This document shows, piece after piece, positions 23,621 through 32,520 of a DNA stretch of 39,333 nt (positions are counted from its first letter, which is position 1; each line of letters begins with the position of its first letter). The stretch is from the NCBI GenBank assembly GCA_017938795.1, contig JAGBAV010000111.1, positions 1 through 39,333 of the forward strand, given 5' to 3'. The notes below the pieces were generated by a model. It searched no databases and was not told where the DNA came from. It worked only from the letters and a program-made list of their open reading frames with translations. The stretch comes from Clostridia bacterium. GTDB taxonomy: Bacteria; Bacillota; Clostridia; Christensenellales; Aristaeellaceae. The translations under genes and the position numbers were made by a program.

Positions 23621-24271
23621 ATGCAGACAGAGAAGCTCGATATTGCCTCCGTATTGGAGGCGCGGAAGGCGCAGCTGGCGATGAAGCGCCTGATGGATAT
23701 TGCGATCTCCGGCGCGGCGCTGCTGGTGATCTGGCCGGTGCTGGCTGTGATTGCCGCGGCGATTGTCATCGACGACCCCGGCCCGGTGTTCTATCGTCAG
23801 GTGCGCGTGGGCAAGGACGGGGAGACATTTAGGATCTTCAAGTTCCGCACGATGATCGTGGACGCGGACAAGAAGGGCCTGTCCATCACCGTCGGGCGGG
23901 ATAACCGCATCACGCGCGTGGGCGCCTTCCTGCGCAGCACGAAGCTTGACGAGCTGGCGCAGCTGATCAACGTGTTCGTGGGCGAGATGAGCTTCGTCGG
24001 GCCGAGGCCCGAGGTGCCGCGCTATACGGAGCTGTACACCCCGTACCAGCGGCAGGTGCTGCTGGTTCGCCCGGGCATCACGGACTATGCGTCCATCGCC
24101 TACCGCAGCGAGAGCGAGCTGCTGGCGAAGGCGGAGGATCCTGAGAGGATGTATATCGAGGAGATCATGCCCGCCAAGATCGAGCTCAATATGAAATACC
24201 TGCGGGAGATTTCCCCGCTGGCGGATATCAGGCTGATTCTTTCTACCATCGCGGCGATCGTCAGGGATTGA
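23621..24271 (+). CDS. Polyprenyl-phosphate sugar phosphotransferase (PglC-like)
   Basis: A 216-residue monotopic phosphoglycosyl transferase (bacterial sugar transferase family) that starts glycan assembly by moving a sugar-1-phosphate from a UDP-sugar to undecaprenyl phosphate. The order is typical: MKRLMDIAISG with a re-entrant hydrophobic helix (~25-50), DDPGPVFYRQVRVGKDGETFRIFKFRTM, catalytic D110-E111 (TKLDELAQLINVFVGEMSFVGPRPE) and PGITDYASI. It lacks the N-terminal membrane domain of WcaJ/WbaP, so it is the small PglC-type. ATG 23621 follows GAGGGG by about 10 bases. It is placed late in the operon although it acts first. Confidence 0.95.
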   Translation: MQTEKLDIASVLEARKAQLAMKRLMDIAISGAALLVIWPVLAVIAAAIVIDDPGPVFYRQVRVGKDGETFRIFKFRTMIVDADKKGLSITVGRDNRITRVGAFLRSTKLDELAQLINVFVGEMSFVGPRPEVPRYTELYTPYQRQVLLVRPGITDYASIAYRSESELLAKAEDPERMYIEEIMPAKIELNMKYLREISPLADIRLILSTIAAIVRD

Positions 24272-27068: not shown

Positions 27069-27602
27069 GTGAAAAAACTGATTACGCTGGCTCTGGTCTT
27101 TGTCCTCGCGCTTGCTGCATGCGCGTCGATTGCCTCTGCGGATGCGCTCTCCACCCGCGGGGTGAACTGGTATACCTCGCCCTCCGCGCTGCAGCGTCTG
27201 CATGGCCATACTGATCCGTACAGGAATGGGCGCTTTGCATGGTATTCCTATCAGGGCGCCGTCCCGGGCAGGAACACGACGCTGAAATTCATCTATCATG
27301 ACGACGCGCTTGTCCTGACGGAGTACTTCTTCTACTACAATAATGGCGAAGATCCCTTTGTCCGGACGCTCAATGAGCTGGAGCGGCACTACGGGCAGTC
27401 GGAGTGTCTTTATAACGAAAAAGAGCTTACGCGCATTCTGGAGGTTACCGGGTATATGAGTCCGCAGCCGTTCAGCCCCTATTACTGGGTGGCAGCCGAC
27501 GGGACGAGGATCTATCTGTTCTTCGAGCTGTATACCTTCGATTATAGTGTGCTGTTTGTCGAGCCAGAGTATTACTGGATGGCGATGAATACGAACTACT
27601 GA
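27069..27602 (+). CDS. Secreted protein of unknown function, possible lipoprotein
   Basis: A 177-residue exported protein I do not recognise. The signal peptide MKKLITLALVFVLALAAC ends in LAAC, a good lipobox with C18 as lipid anchor; cleavage after ASA at about residue 24 by signal peptidase I is the alternative. The mature part is small and rich in aromatic residues (WYSYQG, EYFFYYNN, SPYYWVAADGTRIYLFFELYTFDY), with an LHG...NELERHYG region that resembles small repeat-type domains of secreted Clostridia proteins. The start is GTG 27069; AAGGAT lies 11 bases before it, a weak site. It sits alone between the polysaccharide operon terminator and the leader of the ABC exporter. Its base composition is less GC-rich than its neighbours. 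Confidence 0.7.
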   Translation: MKKLITLALVFVLALAACASIASADALSTRGVNWYTSPSALQRLHGHTDPYRNGRFAWYSYQGAVPGRNTTLKFIYHDDALVLTEYFFYYNNGEDPFVRTLNELERHYGQSECLYNEKELTRILEVTGYMSPQPFSPYYWVAADGTRIYLFFELYTFDYSVLFVEPEYYWMAMNTNY

Positions 27603-27665
27603 TGCGCAGGCGTCGTGCGCAGCGGTGGACGGCGGGGAATGACGGTTCTGTAAAGAGAATGCGCC

Positions 27666-27694
27666 TTGACAGCCGTCCCGCGCCGTGATATATT
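27666..27694 (+). promoter_or_regulatory. Strong promoter of the leader/ABC-exporter operon
   Basis: TTGACA (27666-27671, consensus), a 17-base spacer and TATATT (27689-27694), preceded by TGA, an extended -10. The predicted start is near 27701. It is the closest to consensus in the window. Confidence 0.85.
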
Positions 27695-27724
27695 GATGAT
27701 AATATAGAGAAAGGGGGGTTATCC

Positions 27725-27832
27725 ATGAGCAGGATGTGCCGGATGAAGTGCTATCTGATGTCTCGCTTTTTCGGCTTTAAGTCTGCGCAGTACGGGATAA
27801 CTATGCCCTTTTTCGGGTCATTCAGCCGGTAA
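27725..27832 (+). CDS. 35-residue leader peptide upstream of the ABC exporter
   Basis: A short gene: ATG 27725, 6 bases after AAGGGGGG, stop TAA 27830-27832. The peptide is basic and rich in Met, Phe and Arg; it starts MSRMCRMKCYLMSRFF and ends YGITMPFFGSFSR. It lies between a near-consensus promoter and an intrinsic terminator, with the exporter genes beyond. That is the layout of ribosome-sensing leader peptides (for example bmrB before bmrCD in Bacillus subtilis, and leaders of Gram-positive drug-resistance genes). The C-terminal half vaguely recalls leader peptides of tetracycline-resistance genes, but I cannot confirm that from memory. Its base composition is visibly lower in GC than the flanking genes. 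The job of the peptide is probably its translation, not the product. Confidence 0.65.
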   Translation: MSRMCRMKCYLMSRFFGFKSAQYGITMPFFGSFSR

Positions 27833-27841
27833 CTGTGCAGG
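27782..27841 (+). promoter_or_regulatory. Hairpin spanning the leader ORF stop codon
   Basis: CTGCGCAG (27783-27790) can pair with CTGTGCAG (27833-27840) with one G-T, extended by one pair at each end (27782-27791 with 27832-27841). It encloses the last 13 codons and the stop of the leader ORF, so a ribosome there would melt it. In addition GCCGGT (27825-27830) can pair with GTCGGC (27857-27862), the 5' arm of the terminator, as a candidate antiterminator. Confidence 0.45.
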
Positions 27842-27856
27842 ATTGTGAAGTGGCAG

Positions 27857-27889
27857 GTCGGCGTCCCGGATAAGGGGCGCCGGCTTTTT
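27857..27889 (+). terminator. Attenuator terminator before the ABC exporter genes
   Basis: An 11-bp stem with two G-T pairs (GTCGGCGTCCC, 27857-27867, with GGGGCGCCGGC, 27874-27884), a GGATAA loop and TTTTT (27885-27889). It lies 25 bases after the leader ORF stop and 79 bases before the first permease start, inside what should be one transcript. Confidence 0.8.
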
Positions 27890-27967
27890 ATGTTTTGGTA
27901 TTCCGATCAGGGCTGCGCAGCGGACGGACAGCATCCGGAGACTGGCGCGGCCCACAGGAGGTATGAA

Positions 27968-28750
27968 ATGAGACGATATATGCGGGCGGGCTTTGCGACG
28001 ATGAAGCTTTGCCTGAAGGAAAAGAGCTACTTCGGCTTCTTCAATCAGCTGGCGCAGTATCTGCTGCAGGCTGCTGCGCTGGGGGCGATGCTGATGATCT
28101 GGCGCTCGCTCTTTGCGCAGGGCGCGGATACGCAGGGCATGACGCTCAACCAGCTGTATGTGTATACGATTCTGTCCACGGTGCTCGCGCCGCTGCTCAA
28201 TGTGCATACGCCCGCCTCGGGATGGCTGCACGACGGCACGATGCTCGGGCTGTATCTGCGGCCGTCGGGCGTGTTCGCGCAGCTGGCGGCGCATACCGTC
28301 GGCGGCTGGGTGATGCGCCTTGCCTGCCTTTCGCTGCCGGTGGCGGCGGTCGCCGCGCTGTGCGGCGTCGATCTGCGCCCGGCGAGTATGCTGTTCTTTG
28401 TTTCGCTGCCGCTGGCGGTCGCGCAGGGCTTTGCGGTGGATTATCTCTTTGCCTGCCTGCTCATCCGGCTGCGGAATCTGGAGTGGTGCGTCCACAGCCT
28501 GCGGCAGGCGCTGACCTCGCTGCTCACGGGCTCGCTGATTCCCTTTGCCGTGCTGCCGTGGGGGCTGGGGAATGTGCTGCAGATGTCGCCGCTGGGCACG
28601 CTGGCGGGCGCGCCGCTGTCCATCTATGCGGGGCTGGCGGAGCCGTGGCCGGTCATTGCCGCGCAGCTTTTGTGGAACGCCGTGCTCTGGCCGCTGGCGG
28701 TCGTGTGCTTCGCGGCGTCGCAGGAGAGGATGGTGTCCTATGGCGGGTAA
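27968..28750 (+). CDS. ABC-2 type transporter permease (first)
   Basis: A 260-residue membrane protein with about six hydrophobic segments, of the uncharacterised ABC-2 permease group that comes as two permeases plus one ATPase. It starts MRRYMRAGFATMKLCLKEKSYFGFFNQLAQYLLQ, the usual amphipathic lead of this group, and has LNQLYVYTILSTVL and LRNLEWCVHSLRQALTSLLTG segments. AGGAGGT (27956-27962) is 5 bases before ATG 27968. The stop overlaps the next start by 11 bases, so the two permeases are translationally coupled. Expression should depend on read-through of the terminator at 27857-27889. Substrate unknown; export is inferred from the ABC-2 family. Confidence 0.85.
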   Translation: MRRYMRAGFATMKLCLKEKSYFGFFNQLAQYLLQAAALGAMLMIWRSLFAQGADTQGMTLNQLYVYTILSTVLAPLLNVHTPASGWLHDGTMLGLYLRPSGVFAQLAAHTVGGWVMRLACLSLPVAAVAALCGVDLRPASMLFFVSLPLAVAQGFAVDYLFACLLIRLRNLEWCVHSLRQALTSLLTGSLIPFAVLPWGLGNVLQMSPLGTLAGAPLSIYAGLAEPWPVIAAQLLWNAVLWPLAVVCFAASQERMVSYGG

Positions 28751-29585
28751 GCTCAGGGCGTATGTCCGTCTTCTGGCGCTCTACGGGCGGATGGATCTGA
28801 ACTGGATGCTGCAGGATTCGGTGACGGTGATCATCATCCTGATCTCGGAGACGCTGCAGAATCTCTCGTCCATGGCCGGCGTGCTGCTGCTGGCGGTGCG
28901 CTTTGGCGGCGTCGGCTCTCTGAGCGCGGACGAGGTGCTCTTCATGCTCGGCTTCTATGAGCTGGCGAGCGGGCTTTGCTTTATGCTCTTCGGCAATTTC
29001 AATGTGATGCACATCAGCCGCAGGCTGGGGCGGGGGCAGCTGGATCATATGCTCATCCAGCCGCGGCCGCTGCTGCTGCAGCTGGCGACGGAGGGGTTCA
29101 TGCCCTTTACCGGGTGCCATGGGCTGATCATCGGCGTGATCCTGACATGGATTGCGCTTGCGCGCCTTGAGCTGGCGCTCACGCCCGGCTGGTTCCTGCT
29201 GCTGGCGTATTATGTCGTCATCCATATGGCGCTGCAGATCGCCCAGACTGCGCTTTACGGCGCGTCAGCGCTCTGGCGGCCCGTCGCCTGCGAGGAGATC
29301 TCGACGATGATCCTCGACCTGAATCAGCAGCTGGGCAAGTTCCCGCTGGCCGGCCTGCAGGGGTGGCTCATGGCTGCCCTGCATACGGTGCTGCCCGTCG
29401 GGCTGCTGGCGTATCTGCCGGCGCTGGCGCTGCTGCGCGGGCTGGGCAAGGGGATCGGGCTCACGCTGCCGCTCGCCGTGGCGTCCGTCTTTATGGCGGC
29501 GGCAATCATCTGCATGAAGAAAGGACTGAAGCATTATGAGATATACAGCTGCAACCGGTACAAGGACATGGGACACCGTAACTGA
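28740..29585 (+). CDS. ABC-2 type transporter permease (second)
   Basis: A 281-residue membrane protein, the partner permease of the same exporter. It starts MAGKLRAYVRLLALYGRMDLNWMLQD and has about six hydrophobic segments. RRLGRGQLDHMLIQPRPLLLQL in the first cytoplasmic loop is a hallmark of this permease group. ATG 28740 overlaps the first permease gene by 11 bases (its stop is 28748-28750), with AGGAGAGG upstream. The 3' end overlaps the ATPase gene by 50 bases. It should form a heterodimer with the first permease. Confidence 0.85.
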   Translation: MAGKLRAYVRLLALYGRMDLNWMLQDSVTVIIILISETLQNLSSMAGVLLLAVRFGGVGSLSADEVLFMLGFYELASGLCFMLFGNFNVMHISRRLGRGQLDHMLIQPRPLLLQLATEGFMPFTGCHGLIIGVILTWIALARLELALTPGWFLLLAYYVVIHMALQIAQTALYGASALWRPVACEEISTMILDLNQQLGKFPLAGLQGWLMAALHTVLPVGLLAYLPALALLRGLGKGIGLTLPLAVASVFMAAAIICMKKGLKHYEIYSCNRYKDMGHRN

Positions 29586-30531
29586 GGTCTGCCATGTGAC
29601 CAAATACTTCGATCAGATTCAGCCGGTGTCGCTGCTGCGGCGCGAGCGCAGGCGGATCTATGCGCTCAATGACGTTTCCTTCTCGCTGCAGCGCGGCGAG
29701 TTCGCCGCCTACGCCGGCCCGAACGGAGCAGGTAAATCGACAACGTTCAAGCTGCTGTGCGGCATGCTCCGCCCGCAGCAGGGCAGCGTCCGCCTCTTTG
29801 GCATGGACCCCGGCGCGCGGCGCATTGACGTCATGAGGCGTACGGGCGTGCTCTTCGGCGGCAGGAACGAGCTGTGGTGGGATCATCCTGTCCGCGCCTC
29901 GTTTGAATGGAAGAAGGCGGTCTGGGATATCGACGAGGCGACATATGCCCGCGTCTGCGGCGAGATGCGCGAGCTGCTGGATCTCGGAGAATTGTGGAAC
30001 AGCTTTGCCCGGGAGCTCTCGCTCGGCCAGCGCATGCGCGCCAATCTCGCGCTGACGCTGCTGCATGATCCGGAGCTTGTGCTGCTGGACGAGCCGACGC
30101 TCGGCCTTGATGTGCTGGCGAAGCGACAGATGATTGACTTCCTCAAGCGCGTCAACCGCGAGAAGCAGGTGACGCTGCTGGTCACCTCGCATGACATGGA
30201 CGACCTGACAGAGATGGCCAACCGCATCCTGCTGATCAATGAGGGGAGGCTTGCCTTCGACGGGGACTATGACCAGCTGATCCGGATGGCGGGCGACAAC
30301 AGGATCGTGAAGCTTCGCGTGCGGGGCGGGGCGCCTGTGCTGCCCGGCGCGCAGTATGCCGGCAGCGAGGAGGGGCGGCACATCTACCGCTATGATGCGG
30401 GTGTCACCGGCGTGCAGGAGATCTTCAGCGCGATTGCCGCCGTCCCCGGGGTGGAGGACGTTGAGTTGGGGCACGAGGCCATCGAGAGGGTGATCGCCCG
30501 GCTGTACAGCAGCTGGAAGGAAAAGGCCTGA
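29536..30531 (+). CDS. ABC transporter ATP-binding protein
   Basis: A 331-residue ATPase. Walker A is GPNGAGKST (near residue 68). A variant Q-loop region LFGGRNELWWDHPVRASFEW follows, then a signature in the form LSLGQRMRANLA rather than LSGGQ, Walker B LVLLDEPTLGLDV and the switch His in TSHDMDDL. The WWD and LSLGQRMR motifs are characteristic of the ATPase that accompanies this two-permease ABC-2 group. About 80 C-terminal residues after the switch are extra and end in ERVIARLYSSWKEKA. ATG 29536 lies 10 bases after AAAGGA and overlaps the permease gene by 50 bases; a GTG near 29594 is a shorter alternative. The substrate is unknown. Confidence 0.92.
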   Translation: MRYTAATGTRTWDTVTEVCHVTKYFDQIQPVSLLRRERRRIYALNDVSFSLQRGEFAAYAGPNGAGKSTTFKLLCGMLRPQQGSVRLFGMDPGARRIDVMRRTGVLFGGRNELWWDHPVRASFEWKKAVWDIDEATYARVCGEMRELLDLGELWNSFARELSLGQRMRANLALTLLHDPELVLLDEPTLGLDVLAKRQMIDFLKRVNREKQVTLLVTSHDMDDLTEMANRILLINEGRLAFDGDYDQLIRMAGDNRIVKLRVRGGAPVLPGAQYAGSEEGRHIYRYDAGVTGVQEIFSAIAAVPGVEDVELGHEAIERVIARLYSSWKEKA

Positions 30532-30541
30532 CAGAGATAAA

Positions 30542-30568
30542 AACGGGACGGAGAGTATCCGTCCCGTT
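30542..30568. terminator. Bidirectional terminator, ABC exporter / GNAT
   Basis: A perfect 11-bp stem (AACGGGACGGA, 30542-30552, with TCCGTCCCGTT, 30558-30568) around GAGTA. On the minus strand it runs into TTTTTATC, a good tail for the GNAT gene; the plus-strand tail (TTATCTGT) is weaker. Confidence 0.85.
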
Positions 30569-30581
30569 ATCTGTATCAGGG

Positions 30582-30911
30582 TCAGAGCATGCGCTCGAGC
30601 GTGATGGCCTGCGCATGGCGTGAAACCTCGGCAAACCCCAGCGACCTGTGCAGCGCGAGGGAGGCCTCGTTGCGCGGGGCGACCTGCACGACCACGCGCG
30701 TGAAGCCGCGGCGCCGCATCGCCTCAAAGAGGAGGGTCAGCGCGGCGCGTGCCACGCCCCGGCGGCGCCTCGTCTCCGATACGGCGACGCCGTAGGAGAA
30801 AGAGGGGAAAGCCACGCTGTGAACGGTGATCCCGCCGGCATGCGCACCGTCCTCATAGATGAAAAAGCGCAGATCATCTGCGCTCTTTCCGATGTGTCTG
30901 AGTTCGATCAT
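30582..30911 (-). CDS. GNAT-family N-acetyltransferase, small
   Basis: A 109-residue acetyl-CoA-dependent acyltransferase, shorter than most (about 140-170). The acetyl-CoA-binding motif A is present as VAVSETRRRRGVARAAL, followed by the late motif NEASLALHRSLGF. The N-terminal strands are reduced. ATG 30911 lies 3 bases after the stop of the phosphoribosyltransferase gene, so it is translationally linked to it. The substrate is unknown. Confidence 0.8.
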   Translation of the reverse strand: MIELRHIGKSADDLRFFIYEDGAHAGGITVHSVAFPSFSYGVAVSETRRRRGVARAALTLLFEAMRRRGFTRVVVQVAPRNEASLALHRSLGFAEVSRHAQAITLERML

Positions 30912-31887: not shown

Positions 31888-31916
31888 TTGACCTGAAACG
31901 CGCTTGATGCTATAAT
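31888..31916 (+). promoter_or_regulatory. Promoter for the GtrA-GH28 operon
   Basis: TTGACC (31888-31893), a 17-base spacer and TATAAT (31911-31916) with TGC before it. The predicted start is near 31923, leaving a leader of about 80 bases. Confidence 0.82.
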
Positions 31917-32001: not shown

Positions 32002-32520
32002 ATGAATACCATTCTGAAATCCGTATGGGGGCTGATCGACGCGCTGGCCCGCGCCGTGATCGCTCTGATCGGCAAGGTGTCGCCGGGGCTTGGCGGCTTC
32101 TGCGAGCGCCTGTGGAATAACACCGAGCTGGTGAGCTACCTGTTCGCCGGCGTGGCGACGACGCTCGTCAATTATGTCGTATACTATATTGTCACAAGGC
32201 CGTTTGGCTGGCTGATCCCGGAGGCGATGCTCACTACCGTCGGCACCTGCATCGCGTGGGTGCTCGCCGTGCTCTTTGGCTATGTGGTCAATAAGGTCTT
32301 TGTCTTCCATACCAAGAGCGCGACGCGCATGGAGCTGCTGCGCGAGTTCGGCAGCTTTGTGGCCATGCGCCTTGTGTCCTTTGGCATGGAGCTGGCGCTC
32401 ATGTTCCTGACGGTCGATATCCTCGGCCTGAATGATCTGGTGATGAAGCTGGTTATCAACATCCTTGTGATCATCGCCAACTACGTCTTTTCCAAGCTGT
32501 TCATCTTCCGCAAGAAGTGA
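32002..32520 (+). CDS. GtrA-family membrane protein
   Basis: A 172-residue membrane protein of the GtrA family. After about 45 N-terminal residues come four hydrophobic segments: LVSYLFAGVATTLVNYVVYYI, TTVGTCIAWVLAVLFGYVVNKVFVF, the third around VAMRLVSFGMELALMFL and the fourth VINILVIIANYVFSKLFIF, which carries the family's Asn-Tyr-x-x-Ser-Lys signature. GtrA proteins are thought to move or organise polyprenyl-phosphate sugars for cell-surface glycosylation. AGAGG precedes ATG 32002. It is the first gene of a surface-related operon and could feed lipid-linked sugars to the GT-C enzyme at 12323-16276, which is inference. Confidence 0.9.
   Translation: MNTILKSVWGLIDALARAVIALIGKVSPGLGGFCERLWNNTELVSYLFAGVATTLVNYVVYYIVTRPFGWLIPEAMLTTVGTCIAWVLAVLFGYVVNKVFVFHTKSATRMELLREFGSFVAMRLVSFGMELALMFLTVDILGLNDLVMKLVINILVIIANYVFSKLFIFRKK

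Follow-up and report, generated by a model that had tools for sequence, protein, structure and literature searches.

The window, meaning the whole stretch of 39,333 nucleotides analysed here, contains an ABC-2 exporter operon that is preceded by a promoter, a short open reading frame (ORF) and an intrinsic terminator. The initial annotation had described a near-consensus promoter, a 35-codon ORF with its own Shine-Dalgarno (SD) sequence and a terminator in front of two permease genes and an ATPase gene, and all of these elements were recovered (Table 1). The three operon genes overlap one another on the plus strand, and the operon holds transporter genes only. BmrCD, with whose leader the locus is compared below, belongs to a different transporter family from the exporter here. 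No solved structure resembling permease 1 was found at E<=1.

Table 1. Features of the exporter locus in the window.
Feature	Position	Strand	Basis or remark
Sigma-70-type promoter TTGACA-17-TATATT, extended -10 (TG before -10)	27666..27694	+	11/12 consensus matches
Shine-Dalgarno sequence AAAGGGGGG of the leader ORF	27710..27718	+	Direct reading
Leader ORF, 35 codons, ATG at 27725, MSRMCRMKCYLMSRFFGFKSAQYGITMPFFGSFSR	27725..27832	+	Direct reading, ORF list; related leaders exist
Motif M' GGGATAACTATGCCCTTTTT within the leader ORF	27794..27813	+	Other leaders carry M' in all three phases
Candidate antiterminator strand CCCTTTTTCGGG, complement of 27865-27876	27806..27817	+	Proposed by eye
Intrinsic terminator, stem 27855-27886, T-tract 27885-27889	27855..27889	+	Terminator scan
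ABC-2 permease 1, PF06182	27968..28750	+	Pfam 27.2 bits, cut-off 22
ABC-2 permease 2, PF06182	28740..29585	+	Pfam 75.6 bits, cut-off 22
ABC ATPase, ABC_tran	29536..30531	+	Pfam 85.8 bits, cut-off 25

Nine promoter-like sites were found between positions 24000 and 33000 (2.3 +/- 1.5 in shuffles), and the leader promoter is the joint best of these with a site at 31888-31916. The latter reads TTGACC-17-TATAAT (11/12) and is located just upstream of a plus-strand ORF at 32002. The stem of the leader terminator comprises 13 pairs, 9 of them G-C, the most pairs among the 11 terminator-like sites found (4.4 +/- 2.4 in shuffles). A strong terminator-like hairpin on the minus strand (30542-30568) is situated between the ATPase gene and a convergent ORF (30582-30911). 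The leader RNA from 27701 to 27896 is more stable than its dinucleotide shuffles, with a z-score of -3.5 and none of 200 shuffles equalling it. A short transcript of about 190 nt is expected, counted from a predicted start site, and the length claimed by the initial annotation agrees with the coordinates. No Rfam family reached its gathering score in the window or in a set of 13 loci, and the four matches of a relaxed scan of 27600-27980 were all far below it.

Permease 1 of the window was used as bait for related loci. In a search of 60 relatives any match was found in 12 genomes and strong matches in the window's own genome, G004 and G051; a related-locus search returned two loci, L014 being the new one. 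An order-wide search with the leader peptide (396 genomes) pointed to G121. Permease 1 profiles, which exclude the permease of L002 (internal TAG), matched 2/8 genomes in the family of G121, 6/299 in that of G660, 3/3, 2/6 and 1/1 genomes in three small families, 7/391 genomes of the class and 9/398 of the phylum, with the window's own genome counted in each of the last two. On these counts the distribution of the pump is sporadic. The same-genus copy of permease 1 at L002:1501-2271 has a TAG in frame, either genuine or a MAG error.

After removal of duplicates, 25 loci with a permease 1 orthologue remained, the window included, and in 19 of them a leader ORF is followed by a terminator (window, L002, L003, L014, L018, L060, L061, L064, L074, L075, L076, L077, L078, L081, L097, L099, L100, L101 and L104). 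These loci span eight families (f1, f17, f55, f58, f81, f203, f211 and f232), L014 standing outside the family tally. The leader ORFs are 34-80 codons long, and the distance from stop codon to terminator start is 16-46 nt in 18/19 leaders and 103 nt in L104. Inspection by eye of about 450-560 nt upstream gave no evident leader at the other six loci (L059, L062, L063, L098, L102 and L103); at L062 a short ORF overlaps the permease start with no terminator evident, and at L063 the orthologue stands behind an ABC-F gene. Near position 5441 of L071 (G508) the stop of a short ORF overlaps the permease start (TAATG) with no evident terminator, possibly reflecting translational coupling instead. Ten remoter PF06182 matches (L004-L013), outside the 25 loci, were viewed just upstream of the matched gene. 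A search of other genomes for the leader peptide, as the initial annotation had proposed, gave a profile match at E<=0.5 in 181 of 396 genomes; the sole true leader among the matches inspected was L018, the best match after the window's own genome.

The leader RNAs were cut before the 3' arm of the terminator and folded, and the pairing of the 5' arm with the ORF end and linker was compared with dinucleotide shuffles. In most leaders the 5' arm pairs with upstream leader sequence in these truncated folds. Capture of the arm goes beyond the shuffle mean (more negative) in 18/19 leaders, the exception being L003 (p=0.79). It is individually below p<0.05 in L014, L060, L081 and L097, and p=0.10 in the window alone. 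Fisher combination yields 7.9e-7 over the 19 leaders, which is too optimistic because the sequences are related, and 6.5e-5 over 12 hand-chosen representatives. In full folds the antiterminator beats the terminator in L060, L081, L077 and L078. When simple duplexes were scored in 14 leaders the signal was weak (Fisher 0.038; mean of -15.3 kcal/mol with the own partner vs -14.3 kcal/mol with swapped partners), p was 0.76 for the window, and the duplex program did not recover the pairing proposed by eye for 27806-27817. In a hairpin across the stop codon, both strands differ between L060 and L081 at a single pair, ATACC/GGTAT becoming ATGCC/GGCAT. By arm capture, though with weak support from the duplex test, a candidate mutually exclusive antiterminator is favoured over shuffles for the leader set. 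Thus the layout of an attenuator, as claimed initially, is well supported by its recurrence as ORF plus terminator and by arm capture in the set as a whole, with the window by itself remaining at the p value given above.

When RNA was removed from the 5' side to mimic an advancing ribosome, capture was lost 9-27 nt past the start of a motif in the leader ORF, M, in 14 of the 17 leaders with a scored M. Three leaders (window, L078 and L100) depart from this spacing; L018 has two M-like strings, of which the copy closer to the ORF end was taken. The spacing model is thermodynamic, not kinetic. From this distance it follows that a ribosome held at M would just free the antiterminator strand.

The motif, GGGATAANTNTGCCC(W)TTTTT, is conserved within the leader ORF and occurs in all three reading phases. 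Its GGG is in phase 0 in the window, L014, L002, L018 and L003, in phase 1 in L060 and L081 and in phase 2 in L104, whereas L074 fits more than one register; judged from the base preceding CCC, the phase is 2 in five leaders, 0 in eight and 1 in one. The C-terminal peptide GITMPFF is common to the window, L014 and L018 and reads GISLPFL in L002, but peptide similarity disappears across families while the nucleotides GGGATAACTATGCCC-TTTTT stay. The 15-mer AAGTCTGCCCTTTTT is identical in L002 and L074 and read in different frames. L060 and L081 differ at 14 of 135 nt before the motif, at 1 of 57 in the motif and antiterminator strand and at 2 of 12 after it. Leaving out one clade at a time, the 11-mer core of M was recovered at the expected place in 14/14 leaders (per-leader p 0.001-0.15; 2.6e-8 for eight clades combined), the M instances having initially been chosen by eye and the clades and representatives by hand. 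In an unbiased test with one leader per clade, the best 11-mer (<=2 mismatches) was present in 8/8 clade representatives compared with at most 6 in 200 shuffles. Among five later leaders the motif was found in L104 and variants of it in L101, L097 and L100, and the search pattern gave no motif in L099.

Because the peptide drifts and M is read in all three phases, an arrest peptide was set aside as the conserved unit. Nor does the comparison point to a drug-specific arrest peptide, given that the element kept inside the ORF from family to family is one of nucleotides rather than amino acids. The act of translating the leader ORF, rather than the peptide made, seems to matter. Pairing of M with the SD of its own leader, considered by eye, is unsupported; the variable position of M suits the SD in about half of the leaders. 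By eye the motif has a partial likeness to boxA (TGCCCTTT vs GYTCTTTAANA in the accessible part of PMC5725501). A 27-mer around M with <=3 mismatches matched only the window's own genome among 29 genomes of the genus.

The motif is also found at other genes in Clostridia. Scanning 386 genomes of the class with GGGATAANTNTGCCCTTTTT at <=1 mismatch gave 29 sites in 27 genomes, including the window's own, compared with 2 sites for the reversed-pattern control. The pattern was too strict for the variant motifs of G482, G660 and G733, so that these genomes, although scanned, gave no hit. We read 17 of the 29 sites as preceding an identifiable gene in the same orientation, one of these being the exporter here; a further six appear to be coding sequence or chance matches, and the other six (L117, L121, L123, L131, L132 and L133) lack an assigned gene. 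The flank count left out the six coding or chance sites and the window's own. In G732 three copies (L121, L132 and L133) have nearly identical flanks and are perhaps part of a repeated or mobile element.

The genes following the motif include rpoB (L127 by family search, a partial sequence with 340 bits and under the cut-off; L122, L128, L129 and L130 by eye, with the same N-terminal sequence), rplU (L114), rpmJ-rpsM (L111 via rpsM, L112 by eye), murA (L113) and a formate/nitrite transporter gene (L110). About 65 nt after the motif follows spoIIGA, the gene of the sigma-E processing peptidase, in L108 (tested) and L109 (by eye). ABC-F genes follow it in L107, L115 and L116; that of L116 scores 462 bits, above the cut-off of 380 for the ribosomal-protection-like family, and those of L107 (290 bits) and L115 (349 bits) score under it, L115 and L116 being truncated by the locus end. 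In L105 the gene encodes a transporter related to Mef(A), with 217 bits and under its cut-off. The motif starts 16-23 nt past the -10 element in L122, L127-L130, L114 and L112, whose promoters have 11-12 of 12 consensus matches (9 in L112).

For L114, L122 and L127-L130 the ORF listing contained no upstream ORF (uORF) across the motif, and L111 and L112 have a possible ORF with its start inside the motif. L115 has an SD, a 52-codon uORF with a TTG start that encloses the motif and a terminator 16 nt past the stop codon, followed by the ABC-F gene; its arm capture has p=0.20. A short uORF stops just before the motif in L107 and 40 nt before it in L105; no uORF was listed for L116 and no terminator was found for L107 or L116. 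Weaker terminator-like hairpins are present 3' of the motif in L105, L110 and L128-L130.

A role of M' in pausing RNA polymerase would fit its independence of frame and its position, both ahead of the antiterminator strand and just downstream of rpoB promoters; the NusG of relatives, with its N-T residues, would fit as well. NusG was matched in 11 genomes, the window's own incomplete genome giving no match, and RNT is present in the 10 NusG proteins examined. We take this to be the equivalent of the N81-T82 site of B. subtilis. Against pausing stand the hairpin and element tests: a pause hairpin before the T-tract was rejected (Fisher 0.996 vs shuffles, 8 representatives), and the B. subtilis element TTNTTT is exact at M in only 5/19 leaders, the window not among them. 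The NusG-dependent pause sites described in the accessible part of PMC12288461 resemble M' in having a T-rich element and in their enrichment in 5' leaders, and differ in that M' is a 20-nt string, with its pause hairpin and TTNTTT matches as just given. One tentative reading of GGGATAANTNTGCCC(W)TTTTT(A) is that of a signal for elongation control in Clostridia that has so far gone undescribed. It would act at the DNA/RNA level, sit about 16-23 nt past the -10 of rpoB and ribosomal-protein promoters and also have entered the leaders of genes for defence against translation antibiotics (ABC-F, Mef-like and the exporter here), in both settings coupling how fast polymerase moves to the state of the ribosome.

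Conservation of the nucleotides of M' in all three phases, and its presence ahead of genes such as rpoB that had no ORF listed across it, could also mean that the terminator is controlled by a protein or ligand that binds M' in the RNA and that the ORF is incidental. We consider this unlikely, as the ORF is retained in 19/25 loci despite sequence drift (17 codons changed between L060 and L081, 13 nonsynonymously and 4 synonymously) and no Rfam match reaches a gathering score. An amino-acid starvation attenuator, in which uncharged tRNA stalls ribosomes at regulatory leader codons, is less probable still. Leaders of the trp type have the same architecture, and every phase of M includes a Phe codon, since five consecutive T cannot be read without one in-frame TTT; yet the longest run of C, F, W, R, H, Y, P, T or L codons in the 19 leaders is 2, and the operon's three genes all encode transporter components. 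The least credible reading takes the ORF for a small-protein gene closed by an ordinary terminator of its own, with leakage or another promoter giving pump expression, since the GITMPFF peptide shared by a few leaders gives way to divergence across families with ORF and terminator kept, and the identical 15-mer is read in two frames.

A translation-responsive transcription attenuator is the likely means by which the ABC-2 exporter is controlled. RNA polymerase would begin at the leader promoter and transcribe the short ORF with its strong ribosome site. Free-running ribosomes at the ORF end would cover the strand able to base-pair with the 5' terminator arm, in most relatives directly 3' of M'; the terminator would then form and the short transcript would be released. 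If the ribosome is slowed upstream, this strand could capture the 5' arm and polymerase would enter the pump genes. M' would work at the DNA/RNA level; its most likely effect would be to slow polymerase ahead of the antiterminator strand, with the ribosome catching up.

Sensing of the ribosome is proposed by analogy with bmrB, vmlR and tlrB, as described in the accessible parts of PMC4191407, PMC9226507 and PMC6851288, and the leader would probably be a ribosome-responsive attenuator like those of bmrB and vmlR, with a ribosome-targeting compound as its probable inducer. In bmrB-bmrCD of Bacillus subtilis, slowed translation by ribosome-targeted antibiotics leads to readthrough. The likeness to bmrB-bmrCD drawn in the initial annotation holds for the layout, as both place a short translated ORF, a terminator and a predicted antiterminator ahead of an ABC exporter, but the terminator is inside bmrB there and past the ORF here, and the accessible text of PMC4191407 was not found to describe M'. 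The vmlR leader of B. subtilis likewise has a uORF, an intrinsic terminator and an antiterminator (a candidate here), involves RNA polymerase pausing, as proposed for the present leaders, and controls an ABC-F gene, as the L115 leader seems to; it differs in its uORF of 3 codons, compared with 34-80 here, and in having an anti-antiterminator and a pause hairpin, the latter unsupported here (PMC9226507, accessible part). The tlrB (yxjB) leader of B. subtilis shares a leader peptide, a terminator and a T-rich pause element, but uses an RYR arrest motif and SD sequestration (PMC6851288, accessible part), whereas the leaders here share no peptide motif.

In G429 (L070:10130-12483) gene 1 of the exporter directly follows a ribosomal-protection-like ABC-F gene (439 bits, cut-off 380), and by eye a terminator is located upstream of the latter, near the contig end. 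Given this gene order and the layout of L115, ribosome-targeting compounds are the most likely inducers and perhaps also substrates, on the basis of association. We infer the direction of control, the pause role of M' and natural inducers that would be ribosome-targeting compounds countered by the pump or by a co-regulated ABC-F protein. A literature search, mostly of open-access papers and exclusive of bioRxiv preprints, returned nothing on the leader, which is weak evidence of novelty, and the leader is not described in the accessible parts of PMC2965389, PMC8632094 and PMC11109978.

The leaders provide a comparative set of attenuators of the ribosome-responsive type for Clostridia and relatives, and for an uncharacterised exporter they suggest a role that is open to test, that of protecting against ribosome-targeting compounds. 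The leader motif connects housekeeping with defence genes, and its spread merits separate study. Two of the permeases were searched for plasmid carriage with no match. A looser form of the motif gave 10 matches in viral contigs, with leader context seen at none; one exact motif match is located at L134:696-716, in a viral contig of 101 kb.
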